From Ignavibacteriota bacterium (GTDB taxonomy: Bacteria; Bacteroidota; Ignavibacteria; Kapaibacteriales; UBA2268), in contig JACRLY010000080.1 of the NCBI GenBank assembly GCA_016219595.1, positions 1 through 35,178 of the forward strand: a stretch of 35,178 bases of DNA. Reading direction: 5' to 3'. The position numbers and the translations under genes were made by a program. Below are positions 15,279 to 31,087 of the stretch, in pieces (position 1 is the stretch's first letter; the number at the start of each line of letters is the position of its first letter). Under the pieces are notes generated by a model. That model was not told the DNA's origin. It did not search any database and saw only the letters and a program-made list of their open reading frames with translations.

Positions 15279-18254
15279 ATGAAAAATTTTTCCTCCTTTT
15301 ATATTTATTTATCTGTTTTCATTCTCGCTTCATTTATACATCAAATCGCATCAGCACAGTATTTACTCTCAGTTAATAAATTACCGTCTTGGCTAACTCA
15401 AGAAAATACTATTGAAAAAAAATTGGAATCTCCGATTGAAATGGCACCAAGAAATGCTAATCCAATGTCAGGTGAATATTATCAGAAAGCAATAGAACAC
15501 TTAAAAAATATGCCGGATGAAAATATAAATTCTAAAAATAAAAATGCTCAAATACAATCAATAACTCAATGGCAATCTATTACTGCTACAAGAGTACCTC
15601 TGAAAGATAACCCCAACATTGCCGCACATGGTAGAATCAGAACTCTATATTGGTTCCTTAATTCTTCCAATCCTTCGGGCAGTATTTGGGAATCTTATAT
15701 AGGTGCCAGTAGTGGCGGAATTTGGAAAAAATCATGGAACAGACCTGACAGCTGGTGGTATTCTTATGGAGATAAATTACCTAATCCTTCTGTTGGAGCC
15801 TTATGTGTTTATCACGATTACATTCGCGGTGATGTAATATATGCTGGTACGGGTGACTGGGAAAGATTCAATGGTGCCGGACTTTTTATGTCTACCGACC
15901 AGGGATCTTCGTGGAATAAAATTCCACTTATGGACGGTACAAATGAAGTCATTCCCACTGCAATAACTTCAATCATTAGAAAAGAAAATTACGGTTCTCC
16001 TGATACTATGTATGTTGCCACCGATATGGGTTTCTTCAGGTCTGCTTACGGTGGCACAACCGGATTTACGAGGATACCCATTGTTGCGGAACCCAATTGG
16101 GGTATTTTTGCTATGGTTAAAAATCCTGTCAGTCAGAATATATTATATGCATCTTTACCTTACAGGGGTATTTACAAAACTACAAATTGGGGTAGCACAT
16201 GGTTTCCAGTTAATAATGGATTACCCGATATGAGTAAAACCGGCAGGACTATGTCTTTGGCTATCAGCCAAAGTAATCCCCAGGTTTTATATGTTGCTGT
16301 TACTGATACAAACAGCGATATTCAAGGCGTATTTATCACTACTAACGGTGGTGACATTTGGACAAGAACAAATGCTCCGAATGATATTTCAATTGCCGGG
16401 CAGGCTTTCCATGCAAATGCAATTGCTGTTCATCCTTCGGATTGGAGAATTGCTTATGTAGGTTCTGTAAATTGTTATATAACCAGGAATGCGGGACAAA
16501 ACTGGGACAGGATAGATCCCGGTCATTCAGATATAACGGGATTTTATTTTCTCCCGAACAATCCAAATACGGTTATCATAACAAGCGATGGCGGAGTATT
16601 CATTCGTGATGACAGCAGAAATACAATCCAAAACACTTCTGAAAATTTTTCAGGTGGTGTGCCGCTACAGGAGTATGGGATGGACTATGCTGTAAGTGAG
16701 CCAAACATGATGATTGCCGGAACTCAGGACAATGGAACGATGGTTTCAACAACAGCTTCAGTATCTTCCACAAAAAATTGGACTGAATTTTACGGTTGTG
16801 ACGGAGCTAATTATGTTTACATAGACCCTGTAAATTCAAACTACGCATATTTTAATTCCTGGTGCGGTGAAACTAATCCAAGATTCAGAACACCCAACAA
16901 AGGTATCAATGTTGATGATATTAACAGCGGATTGGCAATGGTTTATTATTCACCTATTGGGATGAATAAATTCAACACAAATTATATTTTTACATATACT
17001 AATCAAGCTGTTTACTTTTCATCCAATCGTGGTAACGATTGGAGAAGAATCAATAACCTTTCGATGGATTTTACTGCAGGACAATTTCCGAAGGAAGCAC
17101 CAGCCGGATTAGCCGTAAGTAATGGTGCCGGAACTAATCCTGTATTATATGTTTGTTTTTGGAAACCTAAACCTTCCGACGTTATTCCTTCGGAGCCGAA
17201 TCCTGAAAGAAAAATTTTCGTTTCTGAGGGTGTACCTGGTTCCATGATTAACAGAATATCTTATCTTCCTGATTTATCTACTGTCAGGGCTGTAATTGCT
17301 GATAACTGGAATCCAAATATAGCATACGCTTTTCCTGAAGCACCTGTTTTCAAATTATTTAAAACATCAGACAGGGGATTGACCTGGAACAATATTTCAG
17401 GTAGCCGGCCCGATTCCTCACTACCGCCGGCGAATGTGAATTATGCTGTTTCTGTTCCCGGTGATGCAAATACAATTTTTGCAGGAACTGATGTCGGAAT
17501 GTTTAAAACCTCGAATAATGGTTCAACTTGGCAGAAATACCAATACGGCTTACCTATTGTACCAATAAATAATATTGTTTATATACCAACAGCCGGTAAT
17601 GATTTACTTAAAATTGGAACTTTCGGCAGAGGATTTTGGGAAAGGATTATTGATGGTGATGACCCTAATTGGACTCCTGCACCTACTGTAATTCGGAGAG
17701 AAAATCGATGTCCAGATTCTTTGATTTATTGCCGTTTATATTGGTCTATTATTCATTTGAGGGCACTCGACAATCCTGTCTGGAGAATTCCTCCCGGCTG
17801 TTTCATGGTTGCTAACGGACAAGGTACAATTGAAAGGTCATTTGATGCCGGTCAGACCTGGGAAATGTTCCAGTTGCCAACAAAGGAAAATATTACTTCA
17901 ATTGCGCCTCTTAGCGAATCTGGTGCTTTTGCTGTAGGAGAAGAAGGCGGTATGTTCATTACAAAAGACTATGGGCAGACCTGGAATCAAGTACAAACGC
18001 AATATAATGTGCCTCTACTTTCAGTTGCATTTTCATCTTTCAACGATGGTTACATTGTCGGTCAGGACGGATTATTATTAAGAAGCAACGATGGAGGAAA
18101 TTCATGGTCGGAATTTATGAATGACCCGGTAAAAACTTTTAGTCAAATATATTTTGTTAATTCCGGCTTAGGTTTTATTGCTGGAATGGATAATAAATCA
18201 AAGCCTGCTACTCCATTTATGCTTAGAACAAATGATGGTGGTAAATCATGGTAA
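15279..18254 (+). CDS. T9SS cargo with BNR/Ycf48-like repeats, N-terminal part (ends at an in-frame ochre)
   Basis: The 991 residues start with a signal peptide (hydrophobic about 5-26, cleavage near ASAQ). Multiple BNR/Ycf48-like beta-propeller blades follow, with repeated Asp-box-like turns: TDQGSSWNKI, TNGGDIWTRT, TSDRGLTWNNI, TSNNGSTWQKY, TKDYGQTWNQV and SNDGGNSWSEF. Such propellers are common in large secreted FCB proteins; none of the residues proves an enzyme activity. The reading frame stops at TAA 18252-18254 in the middle of a blade, just after TNDGGKSW. The same frame then continues open to 18962 with more blades and a T9SS sorting domain. The product made here would therefore lack its export signal. 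Treat it with the following entry as one interrupted gene of about 1,227 codons. Confidence 0.8.
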   Translation: MKNFSSFYIYLSVFILASFIHQIASAQYLLSVNKLPSWLTQENTIEKKLESPIEMAPRNANPMSGEYYQKAIEHLKNMPDENINSKNKNAQIQSITQWQSITATRVPLKDNPNIAAHGRIRTLYWFLNSSNPSGSIWESYIGASSGGIWKKSWNRPDSWWYSYGDKLPNPSVGALCVYHDYIRGDVIYAGTGDWERFNGAGLFMSTDQGSSWNKIPLMDGTNEVIPTAITSIIRKENYGSPDTMYVATDMGFFRSAYGGTTGFTRIPIVAEPNWGIFAMVKNPVSQNILYASLPYRGIYKTTNWGSTWFPVNNGLPDMSKTGRTMSLAISQSNPQVLYVAVTDTNSDIQGVFITTNGGDIWTRTNAPNDISIAGQAFHANAIAVHPSDWRIAYVGSVNCYITRNAGQNWDRIDPGHSDITGFYFLPNNPNTVIITSDGGVFIRDDSRNTIQNTSENFSGGVPLQEYGMDYAVSEPNMMIAGTQDNGTMVSTTASVSSTKNWTEFYGCDGANYVYIDPVNSNYAYFNSWCGETNPRFRTPNKGINVDDINSGLAMVYYSPIGMNKFNTNYIFTYTNQAVYFSSNRGNDWRRINNLSMDFTAGQFPKEAPAGLAVSNGAGTNPVLYVCFWKPKPSDVIPSEPNPERKIFVSEGVPGSMINRISYLPDLSTVRAVIADNWNPNIAYAFPEAPVFKLFKTSDRGLTWNNISGSRPDSSLPPANVNYAVSVPGDANTIFAGTDVGMFKTSNNGSTWQKYQYGLPIVPINNIVYIPTAGNDLLKIGTFGRGFWERIIDGDDPNWTPAPTVIRRENRCPDSLIYCRLYWSIIHLRALDNPVWRIPPGCFMVANGQGTIERSFDAGQTWEMFQLPTKENITSIAPLSESGAFAVGEEGGMFITKDYGQTWNQVQTQYNVPLLSVAFSSFNDGYIVGQDGLLLRSNDGGNSWSEFMNDPVKTFSQIYFVNSGLGFIAGMDNKSKPATPFMLRTNDGGKSW

Positions 18255-18962
18255 AATGTAATTGACATTCCTACCGATTTAATAATTAATAAAGTATTTT
18301 TTACATCCGAAACCAATGGCTTTATGCTTGGTAACGGAGGATTTCTAAGGCAAACATTCGATGGTGGAGCCAATTGGGAGAACTACGGTTACAATGAAGC
18401 AAAATCAGATTTATTTGATATTGGATTCAAAACTCAGGAAGAGGGATTTATCACAGGAGCAAACGGACTGATAATGAGAACTACTGACGGCGGTAAAAAT
18501 TGGTACAAGGAAGAAACTCAGACAAGCGACAATTTTTATAATATCGTAGCCGATACAAACAATGTGATAGCTATAACTGATACGGTATTATATAAGAGAA
18601 ATTACCTGAATAACAGGGAAACTTATGGTCAGGCTCTCATTCATTGGGTGAATCCTGATTATGATACATTAAAAATTACTGATGTTCATGATATCGATGG
18701 AGTAATCAATGCTCTCGAAGTATATCCTAATCCTGTTAATTCTGTTTTAAATCTTAAATTTTCAAATTCCGGTGCAATTGATGCTGAAATCAGGATTGTG
18801 AATTTAATTGGAAATGAATTAAAACTTTATAAAGAAAAATGTCAAACTCAGGGAACTTACCTTTTCAGTTACAATTTGAGTGATTTAGATAATGGAATTT
18901 ACTTTATTCATCTCAAAACAAAATATGGAACTTTTGTGAAAAGAGTTGTTCTCATAAAATAA
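18255..18962 (+). CDS. same T9SS cargo, C-terminal part with type A sorting domain
   Basis: This is the direct in-frame continuation of the 15279 gene after its ochre codon. There is no stop between 18255 and 18962, and the first ATG is only at 18324. The residues after the stop (NVIDIPTD, then KVFFTSETNGFMLGNGG) complete the broken propeller blade. Two further blades follow (TFDGGANWENY, TTDGGKNWYKE). The last about 80 residues are a T9SS type A C-terminal domain: LEVYPNPVNSVLNLKF, then a region of IRIVNLIGNEL, then LDNGIYFIHLKTK and KRVVLIK. That domain directs outer-membrane translocation and surface attachment but needs the N-terminal signal peptide encoded upstream. On its own this fragment has neither signal peptide nor a good ribosome site, so it is a gene remnant or a readthrough extension. 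Confidence 0.75.
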   Translation, partial: NVIDIPTDLIINKVFFTSETNGFMLGNGGFLRQTFDGGANWENYGYNEAKSDLFDIGFKTQEEGFITGANGLIMRTTDGGKNWYKEETQTSDNFYNIVADTNNVIAITDTVLYKRNYLNNRETYGQALIHWVNPDYDTLKITDVHDIDGVINALEVYPNPVNSVLNLKFSNSGAIDAEIRIVNLIGNELKLYKEKCQTQGTYLFSYNLSDLDNGIYFIHLKTKYGTFVKRVVLIK

Positions 18963-19993: not shown

Positions 19994-21988
19994 CTATTTC
20001 TCAGCTCCAAACCAATCATCAATCTTACTTTCTATATTTTTCTTATTCACACATGTTAATGCATAAAAACATGATTCGCCTACCGGTGCATTTTTATCTA
20101 AAAATGATTCGGTTTCTGATTTCAATGTAGTCACTAACACTGCATCTTTTTTCTCAGTCAGACGGTACAATCTGTATTCTTTTATATTTTCCTGCATTGT
20201 TTTATTCCATTTTAACATTACCCCTTCTTTTATTCGTGCAACATTCAAACTTGAAATTGATACTGGTCTGAAAACAGGTATCTCGATAATTGCCGGGGCA
20301 CTCAAATTACTTTTACTTGTACCTATTGAATACGATTCTACAGCATATAAATATGTTAAACCTTCTTCAGCGGTAGAATCCTCAAAATAATTCATAGAAT
20401 TATCTTCTGCTTTTCCATTTACGACAACAAATGATGTAGAATCACTTCCATCAGCTTTTAATATTTTTCTGTATAATTTATAACCGATAATATTTTTGTC
20501 AATTTCAGCCACATCTGACCATGTCAATAAGATACTTCCGAAATTATATTTTGCTCTGAGATTCAATGGTGTTTCTAATGAAATACTAATTTCCGGTGAA
20601 ACGAAAACCTTTTCTGAAAAAGGACTAATATCATAGCTTGTATTAGCCGATTTAACCGCATAAACCAAAGAAATGCTTTTGACATTTTTCAATGAATCTG
20701 TGAACTGTACATTCAGACTGTCGGTTAGAATTATATCGGTTATCTGGAGAAGAGTATCATTCTGAGTCATATCAGAACGGTAAACATAATAACCGCGTGT
20801 ATCAGCAGTCGGCTTTCTCCATTTGAGTGTTACAACTCCGTTTTTAGATACAGCTTGTAATTCCAAAGGTGGCTCTGCTTTTTTGACTGCACCAAGCATA
20901 CCGGTAATTCTTGCACTTGGAAGGCTTTGTCCATAAGCATTATTTATTATCAGGTAATAAAAATAAGTTGTAATTGGATTTACCTGGTTGTCAATAAACA
21001 TTGTATCACCTGGATTAGCACTGCCAATGCGATTGTATCCTTTGTCGTATTTATCACTTTTGTAAATATCAATACTCCTAAGAAACTCCGGTACATCGCT
21101 TTTCCAGCGAATTCTTATTGAGTTCAAACTATCAATACTTTCAGTGTGTAATGCTTTAATATAAGATTCTGCCTTGTTTATCAAATTTACAATTCTTATT
21201 GTATCTGATGCATTCCCGGGATTTCCATATAAATCATAAGGAATTGCATAATACTGATATATTTCTTTTTTATGTACTAAAGTATCAATAATTCCTATAT
21301 AAACACTGTCATGCCTGTTTGAAAACCCGACAAAAGGACCAATTTCTGCAAATTCGGTTTGCATATAATTACATCTGAATACCTTCACTCTCATCAATCC
21401 AATATGTTCAGGTGCATAGAATCTAAGATAAATCCTGTTTTCTTCAGGATTACTGTATATAGATTTCAATTTTAAATTCGGAATTACAGTATTATAATTT
21501 ATAGGTTTTAATGTACTGATTTTATCTGATTCATTTGTTTTTGATATGATTACTTTATACTTGTAAGTATTACCTTTTTTGACATCTGTATCATAATATG
21601 CCGTTCCCAATGCCTCACGATACATTGGAAAACCACCGTAAAGGGGAACGGAGTCAACATCATTTGTCTTTATGATAAAATCCCAAATATTCTGTTTGAA
21701 TTTTTCTTCAGGCAATTCATAAACATTGTTATGTGCATTAATATTAACCAGATTTTGAAAAAAATCATCATAATTAGATTTGAACACAAGTAATTTGATT
21801 AACTTCCAATCTTCCCTGGCTTCATCAGTACGGAATATCTGATAAACAAAATCTCTTGGTATTTTATTTCCGCACATTATATATATTCCTTCAGGACCCG
21901 GAGCAAGGTAAGGATATTCAGGTTGTTGTGCAAAACATACACCAATGTTCATTATTATTGCAAACAATAGTAAATAATACTTCTTCAT
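19994..21988 (-). CDS. secreted multi-domain fibronectin type III protein
   Basis: The 664 residues begin with a clear signal peptide (MKKYYLLLFAIIMNIGVCFAQ). The second half contains successive FnIII-like beta-sandwiches. One is at about 275-365 (SIRIRWKSDVPEFLRSIDIY), one at 370-465 (GVVTLKWRKPTADTRGYYVY), one at 473-570 (SILLTWSDVAEIDKNIIGYK) and one at 575-655 (GVMLKWNKTMQENIKEYRLY). The first 270 residues also look beta-rich with FnIII-like pieces. There is no T9SS sorting domain, enzyme motif or lipobox, so it is probably periplasmic or held at the surface by partners. AGG lies about 8 bases before the ATG. It is the last gene of the minus-strand locus with the barrel and the TANFOR-like giant, 138 bases downstream of the giant. 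A role as a binding or accessory protein of that locus is an inference. Confidence 0.75.
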   Translation of the reverse strand: MKKYYLLLFAIIMNIGVCFAQQPEYPYLAPGPEGIYIMCGNKIPRDFVYQIFRTDEAREDWKLIKLLVFKSNYDDFFQNLVNINAHNNVYELPEEKFKQNIWDFIIKTNDVDSVPLYGGFPMYREALGTAYYDTDVKKGNTYKYKVIISKTNESDKISTLKPINYNTVIPNLKLKSIYSNPEENRIYLRFYAPEHIGLMRVKVFRCNYMQTEFAEIGPFVGFSNRHDSVYIGIIDTLVHKKEIYQYYAIPYDLYGNPGNASDTIRIVNLINKAESYIKALHTESIDSLNSIRIRWKSDVPEFLRSIDIYKSDKYDKGYNRIGSANPGDTMFIDNQVNPITTYFYYLIINNAYGQSLPSARITGMLGAVKKAEPPLELQAVSKNGVVTLKWRKPTADTRGYYVYRSDMTQNDTLLQITDIILTDSLNVQFTDSLKNVKSISLVYAVKSANTSYDISPFSEKVFVSPEISISLETPLNLRAKYNFGSILLTWSDVAEIDKNIIGYKLYRKILKADGSDSTSFVVVNGKAEDNSMNYFEDSTAEEGLTYLYAVESYSIGTSKSNLSAPAIIEIPVFRPVSISSLNVARIKEGVMLKWNKTMQENIKEYRLYRLTEKKDAVLVTTLKSETESFLDKNAPVGESCFYALTCVNKKNIESKIDDWFGAEK

Positions 21989-22056
21989 TTTTTACCTATC
22001 TATTATTTTTCTAGTTAATTTCTTAAATAACTTTTATCCACTAAATCCATTTGACC

Positions 22057-22088
22057 AGGTGGGAGATTTTAACCCAAATCTTCCACCT
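22057..22088. repeat. strong inverted repeat between the giant gene and the FnIII gene
   Basis: AGGTGGGAGATTT (22057-22069) pairs with AAATCTTCCACCT (22076-22088) over 13 positions with one G-T pair and a 6-base loop. On the minus strand it lies in the 138-base spacer downstream of the giant protein's stop. It lacks a T-run on either strand, so it may be a stabilising 3' mRNA hairpin or an attenuator rather than a simple intrinsic terminator. Confidence 0.5.
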
Positions 22089-22126
22089 TTACAAAGTGAG
22101 GATTTATTTTTATCCAATTTTTTCAA

Positions 22127-25100
22127 TTACTCCACAACACTACTGCAGTTATTACTGCAGCTTCCGGTGCCTATATTGACATCAACACCTCCGGTACCAA
22201 CAGTAACGTCGGCTTTCAAACTGATAAATGGTTCAGTATCACTTCCTAATTCAAATATTGTTCCGTCACACCCTATCAAATAGGGTATCTTCTGTTCGAG
22301 TTTACCATAAATGTTAATACTTGCACATATACCAAAATTAATATCATCCGGATATGTGAATTCCAATTGTCCCTTTATGATTGCTTCTGCTTTTGCATAT
22401 AATGAAGTACAGGTTATTGCACTCAATTCTAATTCGGCAACTGCATACAACATTACTGATACACCTGCACTTATCGGTGATGCGAAATTAGCCCAGGCAG
22501 CAGCTTCCACACCTACTTCTAAGCTTACCGATGCACTCGCAATTACAAGGTTCACCGATTCATTGAATGTTAGTTGTGGTATGCTCTTCCTTCCCGTCAC
22601 AAAAAATCCGGCAAATGTTGTTGCATTCTCAAAAGCGCAGGGCAGTCCTTTCCCGATTGAATGACTTGTTACCATATCAAGTGTAGACTGTGGAATTCCA
22701 CCCATCTTGCCTCCTGCGTCATAAATCCCAATTAACAATCCCACGCTGAACACTCCAACAGGTGTTACCTCTGCCTCCGCCGCCGCAGCAAAATAAAATC
22801 CGTGCGGGTCTATGCAAATCTCAGCACATCCACTTATTTTAATCGGACCAATCTCCTTATCCTCGAAATTCAGAGTTCCGATAAACCTCGCATTCGGCAA
22901 ATCAAATGTCATTGTGAAATCACCGAATTCAGTGTTTGTTCCGGATGTAGTTATTTTCTGATTTTTTACATCCGCATCTGTTTTTATTTCTCCATAGACA
23001 GCAAGATTTAATGGCTTTGTCCCAAATCCCTTATCTGAGAAGCTACCTGCAGGATAAAGCTTCAATCTCAAAATATCCCAGTCATTGTTTTTCACCACCA
23101 TTCTCGAGCTGTCTACCCTGAATTTACCTCCTTGGGCACCACCCAGGTCAATGAACTGGTCTCCGACTCCCGGGTCCCTATCGATTCTAATTGTGATTAT
23201 ATTATTCACCTTTTTCTTATTCAGGATGATAAATATTGAATCCAATTTTCCGGGTTCTCTCACATGTCCGTAAAGTTTAAGGTCACGATTACTGATTAGC
23301 TGTTGATTATAATTAGCCCTCGATTCGAATTTAACATAACCCGGTGCATCGAATGTAATATCTGTTGGAAGCATCTCAACTTTTAAATTACCACTAGGTT
23401 TTGTAAACTTTAGCTTGTAAGTCAAATCATTAGCCACTCTTGGTATCTCAAAATCCATCAATCCGTCTATCTTAAACATATCGGCATAAGAGTATATTGC
23501 TAACGGTTTGAATGTAACTATATCATAAAATGGCATTTTTTCACAATCCGGTGAGAAACTGACTATCTGTTCACCGTCACTCAATAAACTGACTGCCTGT
23601 AATTTCAAATCTGACGCAAATCCCGGTAATCCCGGTACCTTAGCCGCTGGATTTCCTATGAATATCAACTTATAATGAGGCTTAAGGTCTAATCCGCATT
23701 TAGGGTCAAGTCCGAACTGGGCTGATTGAGGATTAGTCAGATTCATTTTACAAATGCCGCCCAAAGTTAATTGCGTTACATTCGGTTTTGCAATCGTTGA
23801 TGGTATATTTACTTCAATTAACGTGGTCGCCGGATTCTGCGGGTCTAATCTTATATTTGACCATGCGTGGGGGACAAGATAAATTATTCCCTGTGAATTA
23901 AGAGTGCTGTTCTCTATTTTCGAGTCGGCATCAAACTCCAAAAACTTGAATTTTAGTTTTTGCTGATTTGCATCTGTCAGATAATAAATTTTTCCTTGTT
24001 TGTACCAATTATATATTATCGAAAAATGTGCTGGATTTGTACAATCTTCAAATGATGTTATCATTTTATCATAAGTGCTATCTTTTGCTAAAGCCATATA
24101 AAACTGGTCATCCTGGAATCGGAAATAACTCCCCGGGAAATTAAATGAATTATCAACTATCCTTGCTTTAGAACTCAAATGTCCTCCAGTTAGTGAGTCC
24201 TTTACAACTTTCAGATAATTATTCCCTTGTCCACCTGCTGCCAATAAAACATTGTAGTTGAAAGTTTTGTTTCCCCATTCCAAATTTATTGTATTCGGTG
24301 GTGGGGACTTACCTTTTAATCTCACTTTCATTGATGGCAATGTTAGTGGAAATGTAGAACTCCCCGGCTGTGCTTCAAAATATGGCCTTCCCTTATCATC
24401 AAACTTATCTTTGCCCGGTCGCACAACCAGGTTCCCCAAACCTGCATATTGAGAACTGTCCAGCAGTTCAAAAGCATTTGCTGATTTACTGAAATCTATC
24501 AATCCGTTCAGTTCAAATTCACCGTTAAGTTTCTCAACTAATTTATGCACTTTAATATGAAATCCATGCAATCTCTGAAGATTCGCAACTTTAAATTCCT
24601 TCAATTCAAAATTACACTCATATACAAAACTCTGCCCCTTGTTAAATTCCACCTTCTTCTCTTCACCCGTTAAATTCGGATAGTCTATGTTCCCGTCAAT
24701 CACTGTCCCCGGTATTTGACCGGGTAAATTTATATTCCCTGAACTGTCCTTTGGCGGATTCTCATCAGGCGGCACGCACCTCATATTTATCCATGGCTTT
24801 TGAACATCATTCCCTTTTTGAGGATTTATCCCTTTAAGTGTGTAATTTCCATTAGCATCTGATTTAGTTTTCCTGATATTTGTATTGAATCCGTTAAGCA
24901 CATACACCATCGCATAAGGTACTGCCTTCCCCTCAACTGTAACTTTACCCTTCACTGTCATGCCTGGATTCAACAGGAAATGATAGGATTTGTAAACTTT
25001 TGATTCCTCATTCTGTATTTCAGTATTTACTGGTATTAAATCAGATGTATCAGGCGGCTCAATTTTTAACCAGAAATTTTTCATCGAGGCATTCTTAAAT

Positions 25101-25528
25101 ACAAAACTTGCCTGACCATTGCTGTTAGTTGTGTCTTCATAATCAAGTATTTTCACTATACAATTCGGAACCGGCTGTTTTGTATATGTGTTTGTCACAT
25201 CTATTATTATCCTGTGCTTTCTCTCCTTCACCACAATCTTACCCAAATAATAATTAGTCGTGTCATTCGGTAAATTCTGCAAAGCTGGGATCACAATTGT
25301 ATCATTAAAATACTTCAAATCCACAGGGTAAATATATAACGTGTCAGCATATCCTGTCGGCACTTTCACACTGAACTTTTGTCCTAACTCGGTAAAATAA
25401 ACATTTTGCATCTGCATGACCAAATTCTCATCGCTTTCCTCCTGCATCTCATTCAAATTCAGTTCCAAACTCATATTCATATTCGATTTCACCTGGGACT
25501 TCTTCTTCGTTTTCTTTGCATTGCTCAT
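22127..25528 (-). CDS. TANFOR-like giant secreted protein, C-terminal part
   Basis: About 1,133 residues from ATG 25526-25528; the track's GTG at 25558 is simply the codon after the upstream ochre. The N-terminus MSNAKKTKKKSQVK is lysine-rich with no signal peptide, yet everything after it looks extracytoplasmic. KVPTGYADTLYIYPVD completes a carboxypeptidase-regulatory-like fold begun in the upstream ORF. Ig-like units follow near 110-165 (IIIDVTNTYTKQPVPNCIV) and 195-245 (GKVTVEGKAVPYAMVYV), then a long beta-rich region. An Ala/Val-rich repetitive stretch near 970-1085 precedes a Cys-containing end (GTGSCSNNC). There is no T9SS sorting domain. It is in the same frame as, and directly abuts, the 25559-29266 ORF, so the two are best seen as one interrupted gene of about 2,380 codons. 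As an independent protein it could not be exported. Confidence 0.7.
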   Translation of the reverse strand: MSNAKKTKKKSQVKSNMNMSLELNLNEMQEESDENLVMQMQNVYFTELGQKFSVKVPTGYADTLYIYPVDLKYFNDTIVIPALQNLPNDTTNYYLGKIVVKERKHRIIIDVTNTYTKQPVPNCIVKILDYEDTTNSNGQASFVFKNASMKNFWLKIEPPDTSDLIPVNTEIQNEESKVYKSYHFLLNPGMTVKGKVTVEGKAVPYAMVYVLNGFNTNIRKTKSDANGNYTLKGINPQKGNDVQKPWINMRCVPPDENPPKDSSGNINLPGQIPGTVIDGNIDYPNLTGEEKKVEFNKGQSFVYECNFELKEFKVANLQRLHGFHIKVHKLVEKLNGEFELNGLIDFSKSANAFELLDSSQYAGLGNLVVRPGKDKFDDKGRPYFEAQPGSSTFPLTLPSMKVRLKGKSPPPNTINLEWGNKTFNYNVLLAAGGQGNNYLKVVKDSLTGGHLSSKARIVDNSFNFPGSYFRFQDDQFYMALAKDSTYDKMITSFEDCTNPAHFSIIYNWYKQGKIYYLTDANQQKLKFKFLEFDADSKIENSTLNSQGIIYLVPHAWSNIRLDPQNPATTLIEVNIPSTIAKPNVTQLTLGGICKMNLTNPQSAQFGLDPKCGLDLKPHYKLIFIGNPAAKVPGLPGFASDLKLQAVSLLSDGEQIVSFSPDCEKMPFYDIVTFKPLAIYSYADMFKIDGLMDFEIPRVANDLTYKLKFTKPSGNLKVEMLPTDITFDAPGYVKFESRANYNQQLISNRDLKLYGHVREPGKLDSIFIILNKKKVNNIITIRIDRDPGVGDQFIDLGGAQGGKFRVDSSRMVVKNNDWDILRLKLYPAGSFSDKGFGTKPLNLAVYGEIKTDADVKNQKITTSGTNTEFGDFTMTFDLPNARFIGTLNFEDKEIGPIKISGCAEICIDPHGFYFAAAAEAEVTPVGVFSVGLLIGIYDAGGKMGGIPQSTLDMVTSHSIGKGLPCAFENATTFAGFFVTGRKSIPQLTFNESVNLVIASASVSLEVGVEAAAWANFASPISAGVSVMLYAVAELELSAITCTSLYAKAEAIIKGQLEFTYPDDINFGICASINIYGKLEQKIPYLIGCDGTIFELGSDTEPFISLKADVTVGTGGVDVNIGTGSCSNNCSSVVE

Positions 25529-25558
25529 TTGTATATACTGCTGTTCCACCAAAGGCAC

Positions 25559-28500
25559 TTAATTCAGATTTTTAATATCAAATTCTTTCAGGTACGCCGC
25601 CTGTTCTGTCTTAGTCATCTTCCCGTTCTTTGTCCTCACATAACATTCAACAGCTTTTCCTTCTTCATTTATAACATACCCGTAAACAGTACCCTTCGGC
25701 ATCATCAGCACCTGCGGAAAATGCATCTGCTGTCCCATCTTCAGCGATATTCCGCTCGGCACTGGCGGTATGCACTCCTTACTCGCTGACTGAGTTACTG
25801 TATCAACCGAACCCGTAAGCTTCGTCGCTCCATACAAATAATATCCCGGGCTATTAAATTTCAACCTGTACCTGTAATGATTTATATTATCATACTTCGC
25901 CGGCAAATTCTTAAACACAAAATAACCATTCTGATAAGCTTCACCCACAATCCTTACACATCCTCCTGTACCTGTATAAAGTCCCATGTCACTGTCATCA
26001 GATTTCTTCCCTGAATAAAGCATTACAATTCCAAAATTCACGCTACGCATCGCATTCGACGCATCCAGAACACGTCCGGATATTATTGGTTTCTTCGGCT
26101 CGAGGTAAACATTTATCGATAAGCTCACCGGCTTATAATCCTCTACAAACAAATAATCATACTCATTCCTGTAGTACACTTCTGCTAATTTTGCATTCAT
26201 CTGGCTTTCATAATTCTGCCACGCAACTTCTGCTTTGGCTGCATTTGAAAGGCTTCCAGCATGAGTATTCTCCCATGCCTCATCTATCTCCTTATTGTTC
26301 GAATACGCTGTATCCTTCTTCCAGTCATCATAACCACGGGGGAAATAAATAGTTCTTTTTTGGTAAGAATTTTCGCCAACAGTATCGCTTGTGCTTATTT
26401 CAATTTTATAGTCATCCCAATTCACATTCTTATTGTGCAAAAACAATCCCGTGAATCCTGCTCCCGTTTGCTTATCAACGTATTCTTCACCATGTAAATA
26501 ATTATCCCATCTCGTAATCTTCACAGTGCTACCGTATATCACTCCACCCGGTTCGCTCTGCTCCAGATTTTTAGGATTCTTTCTCGGCACTACATTCAGT
26601 TTATATGTCCTCTTGTATGCTATCAATGTTCCCACATCGACAGAGTCCAAAGGTTGTATAAGAATATCATTTGATGGATTATAAATATATTGCTTCGTGT
26701 AATCAATTACCACAACTCTCGTTGTCCTGTGAAGCTTACCGCTGTATCCGGCAACATTGCAAAACTCCCCGTTTCCTGTTCCGAAATTACCCGAACTCTG
26801 CCAACTGCCAAGTGAATCTATGTGAGCAAAATTCTTGAAAACAAATTTCCCTTCACCGTTTGTCGTCGTTGTTGCCAATAATGTATTCCCATCTCCGAAC
26901 GGTTTCGACAAATCTGCTTCCAGCTGTGCTGCCTGCTGTCCCGTATTAGTTACACTCACTGCATTATTATGTTCTTCAAGCACATGATATGGGTCGATTA
27001 TAGTCTTGTTACCATTATTATCTTCTACGTAATAGGTAACCATCAAACCGATTTGCCTGTAATTCATCGGCTTTATATTCGATTTCGGGTCACTGGGGTC
27101 TCGCGAAACCAATTGTCCTGAAACTGATGCTGTCGGCGGATTATTTGAAATAATTGTTGCTTTCTTATCTACCTTAAAATTATAAATTTGATTTATATAA
27201 TTATAGACAAGCACATATAAATTCGGTACAAATTTTTGTGAAGTCAGCCAATATTCACTCCAATTCTTCTTTACCTGACCATTAATAATTTCTTCCTGCC
27301 ACATATCAACAAGGTAATTATCCCCATTCATCCAATTGACAATCAGTTTATCAATAGTTACAATTGTATGTGCTTTACCATCGCTTCCAATCACCGTTTC
27401 AACTTTTCCCTGTGACACCTGTTTCATCTGGTATAATTCCTTCTTTGGGTCACCAGGCTCGATTTCACCCTCATAATAGGGTATCTCTGCCTTGCTTCCC
27501 ATACGGTATACACTTACTTTCACGTTCTGTGGATTCAGGTCTTTAAAATTTCCCTTATTATACCCTTTACTCACCTCAAACTTCAACTTGTAACTCCAAA
27601 CATAAGTCACAATTTTCCCTAAATTGATAGAATCTGCATTCAACTCTATTTTCTTATTAATTTCCAGATAATAAAAATTATTTATTAAAAGTACGTAATA
27701 TTCAAACAATCTTCCTTTCACCAAAGTCGCAGTATTTATATTACCGAATTTCTTATTCACCTGGTATTGCATGATTTTATTTAAATCCCCGCCATTCTTT
27801 GCTCCTACAATAGGTACACTGAAACTTCCATCCTCGTTCAATGTAACAGGTACATCTGCTTTACCCATCCCTTTATAATATAAATTCTGGTCAATGCTGT
27901 CAGCTATTATCTCATTTGTAACTGTATCCCTAATCATAAGGAATCTCTTTAGTTTAACTCCGGGAGAATTGACCGGGTATTCATCCGTATAATGCTGGAA
28001 CCTGTACATCAGTTGCCCGTTTATATTATATACATTCTCAGGTAAATCAAGGTAAGCATAATCAGCATTAATTGTGTCTAAAGCATATTTCTGTGCTGTC
28101 GAATCGGGCAAATTTAAATTAGTATTTTTCAACACATCGAACTGTTTAAAATCAACACTCATCGAATTAATGAAATGAACTTTATATTTTATAAATGCAG
28201 TGTCGCTCTGTTTTGCAGTATTATTTTTCCAAAGCACATAAAAATTCTTTTTATTATTAACTTCTATTTTCGGAGTTTCTCCAATCGAACCGGCTTCTTT
28301 ACACGTTGGAATTATAATATCAATACCTTTTTCAATATTTGATGCAGTAGTATCCGGTGTATGAGGAGTTTCAACAGTTTTATATATGAATTTCCATGCC
28401 TCGCTCACTCCCGCATTTTTAAACATTACATTATTCGCCGGGTCTCGTGCAACAACTCTCCATGCGTATGTCTCCCCGTTTAAAAAGGTCGGGTCATTAG

Positions 28501-29266
28501 GAAAGGCCACATAATTTGTAGTTGGTAAATCCTTTTCAAAATAAAATTGTGATGTGCTGTACATAACTGCATTCGGATTATCTGCCGGATTAACCATCTT
28601 TGCAATTTGCAGTTTATATAATGTTCCCAATGGTGCAGTAGGGGAGCCAATCCATGTAAAAATCACTGGATTAGCAACGCTTATACTCTTCAATGTATCC
28701 TCATTTGCCGGCTGTATCAATATCGGCGGTTCAGGATATTGTATTGAAATATTCTGACAAGCATCTTCCGATACCGGTTCACCTGTGTTATAATCATACG
28801 CTCGGTAACATACATCATATATCCCTTCCGGCAGCGAGCCAGACCTCATCAGCTTCTCTCTTTCGATACCTACTATATCGAGGTCCCTTACATCAAATAA
28901 ATTTCTTAACTGTACACCTGAAATTGTTGTCGGAATATTCGGTTGCAATATAATCGGTGTTAATGGTTTATGCCCGGGTTTTGTCGAAATTATGATACCA
29001 TTGTCAACTCCCTTAATCATTCCTCCAAGCTTTATTTCCCGGTTTACCTGGTCAGTATTAACAAGTATCAGAAATGTATTATTTTTCCCCTCGAAATAAT
29101 CCGAAAAATATGGAGAATAAGGGGGTACAATATTTAATGTAATTGTTACTACATTGTTTTGGGCTTGTGTGTTTATATTGAATAATAAGAATAGTAACAC
29201 AAATCCTAAATGCATCATTAAGTCCGAAGGATGAGAATAAAATGATTTAATATATCCCTTTGTCAT
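25559..29266 (-). CDS. TANFOR-like giant secreted protein, N-terminal part (ends at an in-frame ochre)
   Basis: The 1,235 residues have a signal peptide (hydrophobic MMHLGFVLLFLLFNINTQAQ, about 17-36). Residues about 40-180 resemble the TANFOR domain known from large Tannerella-type Bacteroidetes proteins: PPYSPYFSDYF, an RDLDIVGIE segment, LPEGIYDVCYRAYD and VSEDACQNISIQYPEPPIL. An FnIII-like unit follows (about 180-300, GETYAWRVVARDP). Long beta-rich modules follow, two of which share a motif: INLGKIVTYVWSYKLKFEV near 550 and VDVGTLIAYKRTYKLNVVP near 880. Carboxypeptidase-regulatory folds lie near 1,090-1,190 and at the C-terminus (YGYVINEEGKAVECYVRT). The last fold is cut by TAA 25559-25561 and completed by the downstream ORF. 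AAGGTGG four bases before ATG is a strong Shine-Dalgarno. It follows the barrel gene by 40 bases. Confidence 0.75.
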   Translation of the reverse strand: MTKGYIKSFYSHPSDLMMHLGFVLLFLLFNINTQAQNNVVTITLNIVPPYSPYFSDYFEGKNNTFLILVNTDQVNREIKLGGMIKGVDNGIIISTKPGHKPLTPIILQPNIPTTISGVQLRNLFDVRDLDIVGIEREKLMRSGSLPEGIYDVCYRAYDYNTGEPVSEDACQNISIQYPEPPILIQPANEDTLKSISVANPVIFTWIGSPTAPLGTLYKLQIAKMVNPADNPNAVMYSTSQFYFEKDLPTTNYVAFPNDPTFLNGETYAWRVVARDPANNVMFKNAGVSEAWKFIYKTVETPHTPDTTASNIEKGIDIIIPTCKEAGSIGETPKIEVNNKKNFYVLWKNNTAKQSDTAFIKYKVHFINSMSVDFKQFDVLKNTNLNLPDSTAQKYALDTINADYAYLDLPENVYNINGQLMYRFQHYTDEYPVNSPGVKLKRFLMIRDTVTNEIIADSIDQNLYYKGMGKADVPVTLNEDGSFSVPIVGAKNGGDLNKIMQYQVNKKFGNINTATLVKGRLFEYYVLLINNFYYLEINKKIELNADSINLGKIVTYVWSYKLKFEVSKGYNKGNFKDLNPQNVKVSVYRMGSKAEIPYYEGEIEPGDPKKELYQMKQVSQGKVETVIGSDGKAHTIVTIDKLIVNWMNGDNYLVDMWQEEIINGQVKKNWSEYWLTSQKFVPNLYVLVYNYINQIYNFKVDKKATIISNNPPTASVSGQLVSRDPSDPKSNIKPMNYRQIGLMVTYYVEDNNGNKTIIDPYHVLEEHNNAVSVTNTGQQAAQLEADLSKPFGDGNTLLATTTTNGEGKFVFKNFAHIDSLGSWQSSGNFGTGNGEFCNVAGYSGKLHRTTRVVVIDYTKQYIYNPSNDILIQPLDSVDVGTLIAYKRTYKLNVVPRKNPKNLEQSEPGGVIYGSTVKITRWDNYLHGEEYVDKQTGAGFTGLFLHNKNVNWDDYKIEISTSDTVGENSYQKRTIYFPRGYDDWKKDTAYSNNKEIDEAWENTHAGSLSNAAKAEVAWQNYESQMNAKLAEVYYRNEYDYLFVEDYKPVSLSINVYLEPKKPIISGRVLDASNAMRSVNFGIVMLYSGKKSDDSDMGLYTGTGGCVRIVGEAYQNGYFVFKNLPAKYDNINHYRYRLKFNSPGYYLYGATKLTGSVDTVTQSASKECIPPVPSGISLKMGQQMHFPQVLMMPKGTVYGYVINEEGKAVECYVRTKNGKMTKTEQAAYLKEFDIKNLN

Positions 29267-29306
29267 AAACCACCTTTATATTAATTTATTTTTTTCATGT
29301 TATCAT

Positions 29307-30893
29307 TTAAAAATTATATATGTAGCCAACACTGCTCCTGTATTCGGTAAAACTCGGATTAGTTCCGCTCAAACGCGAATCAATCAAATTCACGTCAAAC
29401 CTTACATTGTGTGAATTTGCTAATTGATATGAGCTCTGTATTGTAGCTGTAGTCGTTGCTCCCGAACTAACACCGTTAACATTTTGAATCTGGTAGCCAA
29501 CCGAACCACCAATATTGATTGAACTTAAAGTCCAATTCAATTGAACAATCGGACCAATAAACAAACTCTTCGAATTTGCCATCGTTGACTGAACTGCATT
29601 AATATTTAATCCATAACTAATTCCCGATTTAATCAATACAGTCTGATAGGTGAGTGTTCCCGTTAAATTCTGAGTCTCTGTAGTTCCTGCAGTTTTTTTA
29701 TTAAGGTCATTTAAGGTTTGGTATCCTCCCATCAATAAAATATTATGAACTGCCGATTCCCCTGACATTGTAATTCTAAAAACAGAATTGAAATTATGAT
29801 TTACCCTCGATACTTTCATAGAATCTACAAATGGAATTGTATCTATCCTGGGAAATATTTTTCTTGTTTGGGCTATCCCGTAGCTCGAATACCTCAAATC
29901 TATACCATAGCTCTGCTTCTGATGAGACAAATCGATTGAGCCGATTATTCTGTTCGATGTGTATGTTTTTGTTTTCATTAGATTATCATTTTGAATCCCA
30001 ATGCTTCCGCTTACTCTCAATAAATTATCAAAAACAGTGAAATATGGTGACAATGTTATATTTTCAACATCCGATTCCATGTAATAAATACCCATTGATT
30101 TATAATCAGGGTCAATCCTCTTGTATGCAAGCCTCAAGCTGAATCCTTTTCCCCTGTATGTTAATCCGGTTTGAAATGCAGTAGTTAATTGTGTAGATGT
30201 CCTCACATTATAAATACTCTGAAATTGCTTCAAAATTCCACTGCTCGTCGAATCGTTTATTGCAGACGCCCTCGTGTCAAGTGTATATACACTACCTGCC
30301 GCATCAATATCCATACTCAAAAACGAAAACGGTGAGAATCTGCTCGTTAATCCCAATACCATATTCTCTGCAGGCTTATATAACACACCAGTGGTGTCAA
30401 CACTTCTCAAATAATTTGTATCAATCGAATTAAAATCATCCTTTGCTCTTAGCAATATCAAATCGCAATAATCAGTCTGAGTTCCAAGACCGAATTTAAC
30501 TGCATATCCCATTCTCTCAAATGTTGGGGCAATCATTCGGGTTGACGATGAATCTCCTACTGTCGCTTTCAGGAATCTCCCATACATAGCACCAAACCTG
30601 AAAATGCTAGGATTAAGCTCGATTCCTCCTCCTAGAAAAGTGTGTCCCGACAATGTAAAAGGCGAATAACTCAGATTTCTCCAGCCGGCATGAGCTGTAA
30701 TCCATTTATATTTGGGACTAACTCCATATTGATTAAATGGCTGGATAAAACTCCTGTTTTGCTCACTGATTGTCGCCGAAAACGGAAATGATATGCCGAA
30801 CAAATTAATTGTAAATGAGCCGACCAGGGAATAGTCAAATGGCTTGTATCGGGCATCCATACCTCCTGATATTCCATAATGGCTCAAATTCAA
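29307..30893 (-). CDS. outer-membrane beta-barrel protein lacking its signal peptide
   Basis: The protein is about 528 residues of alternating amphipathic strands ending in a terminal aromatic, SSVGYIYNF, the usual barrel insertion signal. The N-terminal part has PFNQYGVSPKYKWITAHAGW, YSPFTLSGHTFLGGG, and FGAMYGRFLKA, a pattern I associate with uncharacterised FCB outer-membrane proteins. The track starts at TTG 30893, but homologous-looking sequence extends upstream in frame (ADDKIITASGSIGLNLSHYG) to a TAG at 30939-30941, with a TAA 12 bases further up. No frame upstream encodes a hydrophobic signal sequence and there is no ATG or Shine-Dalgarno. A barrel without a signal peptide cannot reach the outer membrane, so the gene appears 5'-truncated. 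The preserved body suggests recent loss, or a non-canonical start. Confidence 0.65.
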   Translation of the reverse strand: MNLSHYGISGGMDARYKPFDYSLVGSFTINLFGISFPFSATISEQNRSFIQPFNQYGVSPKYKWITAHAGWRNLSYSPFTLSGHTFLGGGIELNPSIFRFGAMYGRFLKATVGDSSSTRMIAPTFERMGYAVKFGLGTQTDYCDLILLRAKDDFNSIDTNYLRSVDTTGVLYKPAENMVLGLTSRFSPFSFLSMDIDAAGSVYTLDTRASAINDSTSSGILKQFQSIYNVRTSTQLTTAFQTGLTYRGKGFSLRLAYKRIDPDYKSMGIYYMESDVENITLSPYFTVFDNLLRVSGSIGIQNDNLMKTKTYTSNRIIGSIDLSHQKQSYGIDLRYSSYGIAQTRKIFPRIDTIPFVDSMKVSRVNHNFNSVFRITMSGESAVHNILLMGGYQTLNDLNKKTAGTTETQNLTGTLTYQTVLIKSGISYGLNINAVQSTMANSKSLFIGPIVQLNWTLSSINIGGSVGYQIQNVNGVSSGATTTATIQSSYQLANSHNVRFDVNLIDSRLSGTNPSFTEYRSSVGYIYNF

Positions 30894-31087
30894 TCCGATT
30901 GAACCGCTCGCAGTAATTATTTTATCATCTGCGATTCTCTAGTATTTTATTTATTTTTCTATTCTTATTATACTCAATCAATACCCCTATTATATAATAT
31001 AAGGAATTTTTTGAATTATCTGAAAGGAAATCTATAAACAATTACAATTTTTATTTAATAGTAATGAAAATAAAACAGGAGGGATTT
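30894..31087. other. AT-rich spacer upstream of the truncated barrel gene
   Basis: No ORF or RNA gene is seen. The first about 48 bases (30894-30941) still read in frame with the barrel on the minus strand. Beyond that the sequence is low-complexity, with TATATTATATAATAGGGG-like runs on the minus strand that could hold a -10 region, but no TAnnTTTG element. The missing signal-peptide codons should have been here. Confidence 0.4.

Follow-up and report, generated by a model that had tools for sequence, protein, structure and literature searches.

A beta-barrel family encoded beside TANFOR giants across the Bacteroidota: a candidate outer-membrane partner

Introduction

Previous work has described the TANFOR giants as polymorphic toxins, hypothesised to be substrates of the type IX secretion system (T9SS), with Fn3 genes enriched nearby (Jana, Salomon, Bosis 2020, PMC7073777). 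That study also found that unrecognised C-termini can be toxins. For the exit of TANFOR toxins from the cell, the T9SS was proposed, but no sorting signal was found. Neither "barrel" nor "porin" is mentioned in the main text of PMC7073777, and we found no other papers on TANFOR biology in the open-access collection searched (subscription papers, preprints and supplements lay outside the search). A second precedent comes from the PorP-like barrels, which anchor T9SS proteins bearing a type B C-terminal domain (CTD), as in the pairs PorP-PG1035 and SprF-SprB (Gorasia 2022, PMC9143113). Here, we analyse a 35,178-nucleotide stretch of DNA (the window) from an Ignavibacteriota bacterium (GCA_016219595.1, contig JACRLY010000080.1, our C54), in which three neighbouring minus-strand genes encode an outer-membrane barrel, a TANFOR-headed giant and a protein with multiple fibronectin type III (FnIII) domains. 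We find that one barrel family is paired with TANFOR heads throughout the phylum. Probably, these genes represent a widespread Bacteroidota surface module, in which the TANFOR head docks on the barrel, its dedicated partner, and the barrel holds the giant at the membrane.

Results

The window belongs to an assembly of 3.45 Mb in 132 contigs, 91% complete, whose closest named relative is 'Ignavibacteria bacterium RIFOXYC2_FULL_35_21' (contig MHAY01000028.1). An initial annotation had placed three consecutive minus-strand genes here, separated by gaps of 40 and 138 bases; the open reading frames (ORFs) lie as described, and the genes are real. Whether the trio means anything was said to hinge on its co-occurrence in other genomes, and this proves decisively conserved. 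Within the order, a search with the giant's head matched 37 of 60 relatives, and in several families the loci that we fetched mostly have the order barrel-giant-FnIII, with the genes on one strand. For the phylum as a whole, profiles built for the barrel (A2) and the head (A3) were searched in 327 genomes drawn evenly across it. Core barrels numbered 88, from 68 genomes, and 76 of these barrels have a head within 15 kb (counts not corrected for shared ancestry), where chance would bring a head that close to a barrel in about 0.75% of cases per head. All 76 linked heads are on the barrel's strand, 57 lie within 1 kb, and 61 are downstream. As a control, none of 40 genes for SprA, a T9SS marker, was found within 15 kb of a head in head-bearing genomes. 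The two partners also coincide at the level of whole genomes: a head is present in 68/68 core-barrel genomes, and a core or larger barrel in 78 of the 81 genomes with a head. The order barrel-head-FnIII is seen in 24 of 49 barrel-bearing loci; the others hold permutations or partial sets, and the permutations keep to one strand.

In some genomes, the two proteins are joined. Locus L105 encodes a single 911-aa ORF composed of head (residues 22-303) and barrel (342-911), L107 encodes a 1,016-aa ORF of the same composition, and frame lengths indicate further fusions in G192, G226, G263 and G349. As the head comes first in the fused chain, it would be expected to face the periplasm or to sit in the barrel lumen. 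Head and barrel also diverge together. Across 29 loci, the Mantel correlation of distances is 0.85 for barrel and head, and 0.47 for barrel and FnIII protein. Sets of recent paralogues (G072, G091 and G183 with three copies each; G161 and G171 with two) track consistently, barrel to barrel and head to head; below about 30% identity, the matching of deep paralogues is noise (56 agree, 25 disagree), so that only recent paralogues are informative.

Several observations weigh against a dedicated partnership of barrel and head. Six of the fetched core barrels (L084, L088, L113, L119-L121) have no head or FnIII match adjoining them, and the linkage counts carry no correction for phylogeny. Only two fusion ORFs are confirmed, the others being inferred from matching frame lengths, and the barrel part of the fusion aligns only from profile position 107. 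The presence of SprA in 68/68 barrel genomes versus 253/327 overall speaks for the favoured reading, but its absences are concentrated in one family.

The barrel gene of the window occupies 29307..30893 (minus strand), or extends to 30938 if read stop to stop; its start codon and the signal peptide at its 5′ end are missing. The initial annotation had called it an outer-membrane barrel, and structure prediction bears this out. AlphaFold2, applied to an intact relative (L033, alignment A2), returned a model with a predicted local distance difference test score (pLDDT) of 82.6 and about 25 long strands, and relatives carry the signal peptide that the window copy lacks. In the Protein Data Bank (PDB), the fold closest to this model is the wide MtrB barrel (TMq 0.55); SlpA, FimD, LptD and SprA come next, along with others, and sequence identities are about 8-13%. 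Such matches say "large barrel" and nothing further. No Pfam or NCBIfam family describes the barrel. The PorP/SprF profile TIGR03519 matches none of 18 barrels and nothing in the window genome, and among the same 18 there are no POTRA or Omp85 Pfam domains, with a weak IAP75 match in two. Membership of the PorP/SprF or Omp85 families was rejected on these grounds, as was placement of the giants and FnIII proteins in T9SS-substrate families, whose profiles are likewise unmatched.

The concern that the barrel might be an ordinary porin, raised at the outset, is not borne out by these searches: it is neither a named porin nor a PorP/SprF-family protein. If the barrel were a porin for nutrients or small molecules, in one operon with secreted proteins and linked to them by co-regulation only, the few core barrels that stand alone would be accounted for, and 1 of 18 family members has a weak Porin_4 match. 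We consider this improbable in view of the 68/68 correlation in presence, the immediate adjacency, the fusion and the tight co-divergence.

Larger relatives of the barrel (800-930 aa) form a separate group, and only 1 of 24 examined lies near a head. Two of these sister barrels, weak matches to the same profile in two distant genomes (L102:4775-9692 and L103:4253-8953), adjoin a CHASE2-adenylate/guanylate cyclase and have a small secreted protein close by, which in L102 is Ig-like. It is possible that sister barrel and cyclase constitute an outer-membrane signalling module that is not TANFOR-linked.

We turn to the giant. Its first part (25559..29266, minus strand) consists of a signal peptide, the TANFOR head with an Ig-like module (residues ~30-320) and the start of the body, and ends at an in-frame stop; the second (22127..25558, same strand and frame) contains a CarboxypepD_reg domain together with a beta-rich C-terminal body that is confined to close relatives. 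About 290 residues of the head (28301..29176) are common to all giants of the family. The TANFOR-like head and carboxypeptidase-regulatory fold of the initial annotation are both recovered: CarboxypepD_reg matches with E=6.9e-8, and TIGR02542 matches residues 38-168 with E=1.2e-12 (model positions 2-137 of 145). The window giant thus has an N-terminal domain of ~145 residues after a Sec signal, as TANFOR proteins do, albeit at a score of 48 bits, below the curated cut-off of 67. TIGR02542 matches 12 of 24 barrel-linked giants. Our head profile matches 133 of the 327 genomes, weak hits included, and the public model 11; published TANFOR counts are probably underestimates. Past an LPEG motif, two cysteines are invariant in 24 aligned giants (C162 and C179 of the L033 giant, with window equivalents near 28750), which suggests that the TANFOR head may contain a disulfide.

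Behind this common head, the C-termini vary, as in the TANFOR polymorphic toxins. By similarity, the heads of 36 intact giants make up a single cluster, and the C-terminal 400 residues of the same giants make up 17. Distant families share clusters, yet clusters differ within the window's own family (L038 versus L033). One barrel-linked giant ends in a colicin-type DNase (Col-Pyo_DNase, E=3.9e-41). Domain searches, which novel toxin folds could escape, recognised neither a toxin domain in the window giant nor an immunity gene downstream. The C-terminal half of the window giant is poorly modelled (pLDDT 53, pTM 0.35), and PDB sequence searches with barrel, head and body profiles gave no useful relative. 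In the window's lineage, the giant may be purely structural, a surface adhesin or sheath and no toxin carrier. Most order-level giants, like that of the window, lack a toxin domain, the body is beta-rich, and the gene that follows is for the FnIII protein, not a small immunity-type gene. However, the C-termini differ from taxon to taxon, a DNase is present in a related giant, and unrecognised C-termini have been found to be capable of acting as toxins (PMC7073777). We see the two sides as evenly balanced; a structural giant would in any case be compatible with docking at the barrel.

The third gene (19994..21988, minus strand) encodes the secreted multi-FnIII-like partner. Its description as a multi-FnIII protein stands in part: the window protein has no Pfam fn3 match of its own, but fn3 matches 10 of 20 aligned relatives. 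Neither it nor the window barrel has a significant Pfam family of its own. FnIII proteins are conserved beside unrelated bodies, which argues that the partner may serve the head or the barrel, and not a particular payload.

As initially annotated, the locus lacks T9SS sorting domains, and profile searches found no type A or B C-terminal sorting domain in 24 giants and none in 20 FnIII proteins. Export might then run through the barrel itself, by a new route of the two-partner type: the TANFOR head would direct the giant to a wide barrel, and the giant would pass through it. The predicted ~25 strands, the matches to the wide MtrB barrel and the FimD usher, and the head-barrel fusion are all in keeping with this idea. 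On the other hand, large barrels match many PDB barrels non-specifically and at high root-mean-square deviation, neither an energy source nor an Omp85-type POTRA signature is apparent, and the T9SS marker is present in every barrel genome. We therefore regard a barrel-borne route as unlikely.

The window copy of the cassette differs from those of its relatives. In the congeners G002 and G003 (loci L033 and L034), a single open frame encodes the whole giant (2,494 and 2,520 aa); in the window, it is two same-frame ORFs with one stop codon between them, so that the initial reading of a giant made of two ORFs holds for the frame, and what is a single gene in congeners is here interrupted. Alternative genetic code and programmed readthrough were rejected as explanations because the congeners have a single frame free of stops. 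The barrel gene lacks a start codon and signal peptide because a segment present in relatives is missing, and there is no in-frame start upstream. The ratio of nonsynonymous to synonymous substitution rates (dN/dS) against relatives is 0.05-0.08 for the barrel, giant and FnIII genes, as expected under purifying selection, compared with 0.05-0.09 for neighbouring control genes and 0.08-0.12 among the relatives themselves. The lesions, if real, are therefore recent. The window cassette has probably been inactivated recently, and this copy is probably non-functional. No second core barrel (profile A2) or second strong TANFOR head (head profile) was found in the window genome; relatives possess intact copies. 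It is also conceivable that the locus is intact and that the stop and the missing 5′ end are assembly errors, or reflect a strain mixture in the metagenome bin. The fragmented, incomplete assembly and the strong selection on the cassette would fit, but two independent lesions in one operon would be needed, and that in the barrel deletes tens of bases, unlike a base-call error; we find this doubtful, though it deserves some weight.

Elsewhere in the window, a glycosylhydrolase/Ycf48-like ORF (15279-18254, plus strand) is followed by a separate ORF (18324-18962, plus strand) in which the match goes on and which has a T9SS sorting domain at its end; this is possibly another broken gene.

Discussion

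Giants with different tails and a shared head are encoded beside one barrel family, which suggests that the barrel holds or exports them. Docking, anchoring and export by the barrel are all roles that we infer from this pairing. In the arrangement that we favour, Sec would export the barrel, the giant and the FnIII protein to the periplasm. The barrel would insert in the outer membrane and dock the TANFOR head as its dedicated partner. Held there, the giant could extend its variable body to the outside, a toxin in some species and a beta-rich body here. The FnIII protein may be a structural or assembly accessory.

SprA is encoded in all 68 barrel genomes, so the T9SS may yet have a role, and it is encoded in the window genome as well. 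We think that anchoring by the barrel, with export by the T9SS, is more likely than export via the barrel. A more far-reaching proposal is that the barrel is a dedicated TANFOR export channel, a new Bacteroidota pathway in which the common head targets interchangeable bodies, antibacterial toxins among them; this appears rather unlikely. The locus had been put forward as a candidate for an undescribed surface or secretion system. Its genes do form a conserved unit with an apparently new barrel partnership, but "secretion system" goes beyond what has been proven, and the locus was in part already described: TANFOR giants are a published class of polymorphic toxins with Fn3-enriched neighbourhoods.

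Compared with that class (PMC7073777), the present giants share the Sec-signal TANFOR head, the giant size, the variable C-termini that include nucleases, the Fn3 and T9SS-substrate neighbours, and the T9SS-bearing genomes. There are two differences: for the window giant, neither a toxin nor an immunity gene is recognised, and the earlier description makes no mention of a barrel in its main text. MtrB-type wide porin sheaths and the FimD usher rank among the solved structures closest in fold to the barrel model; they differ in having unrelated partners, and the likeness amounts to 8-9% identity and partial TM-scores, with no sequence homology. The closest functional analogy is the PorP/SprF type of anchoring (PMC9143113), where a barrel of the outer membrane pairs with a protein displayed on the cell surface. 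In contrast to that system, the present barrel matches no PorP/SprF model, the giants carry no type B CTD, and PorP is nearly absent from the window's order (1 weak match in 40 genomes). The giant class, then, is known, and the barrel partnership appears to be new. With a barrel family that accompanies the TANFOR head, and in some cases is joined to it in one ORF, there is a concrete candidate for the outer-membrane partner of these proteins.
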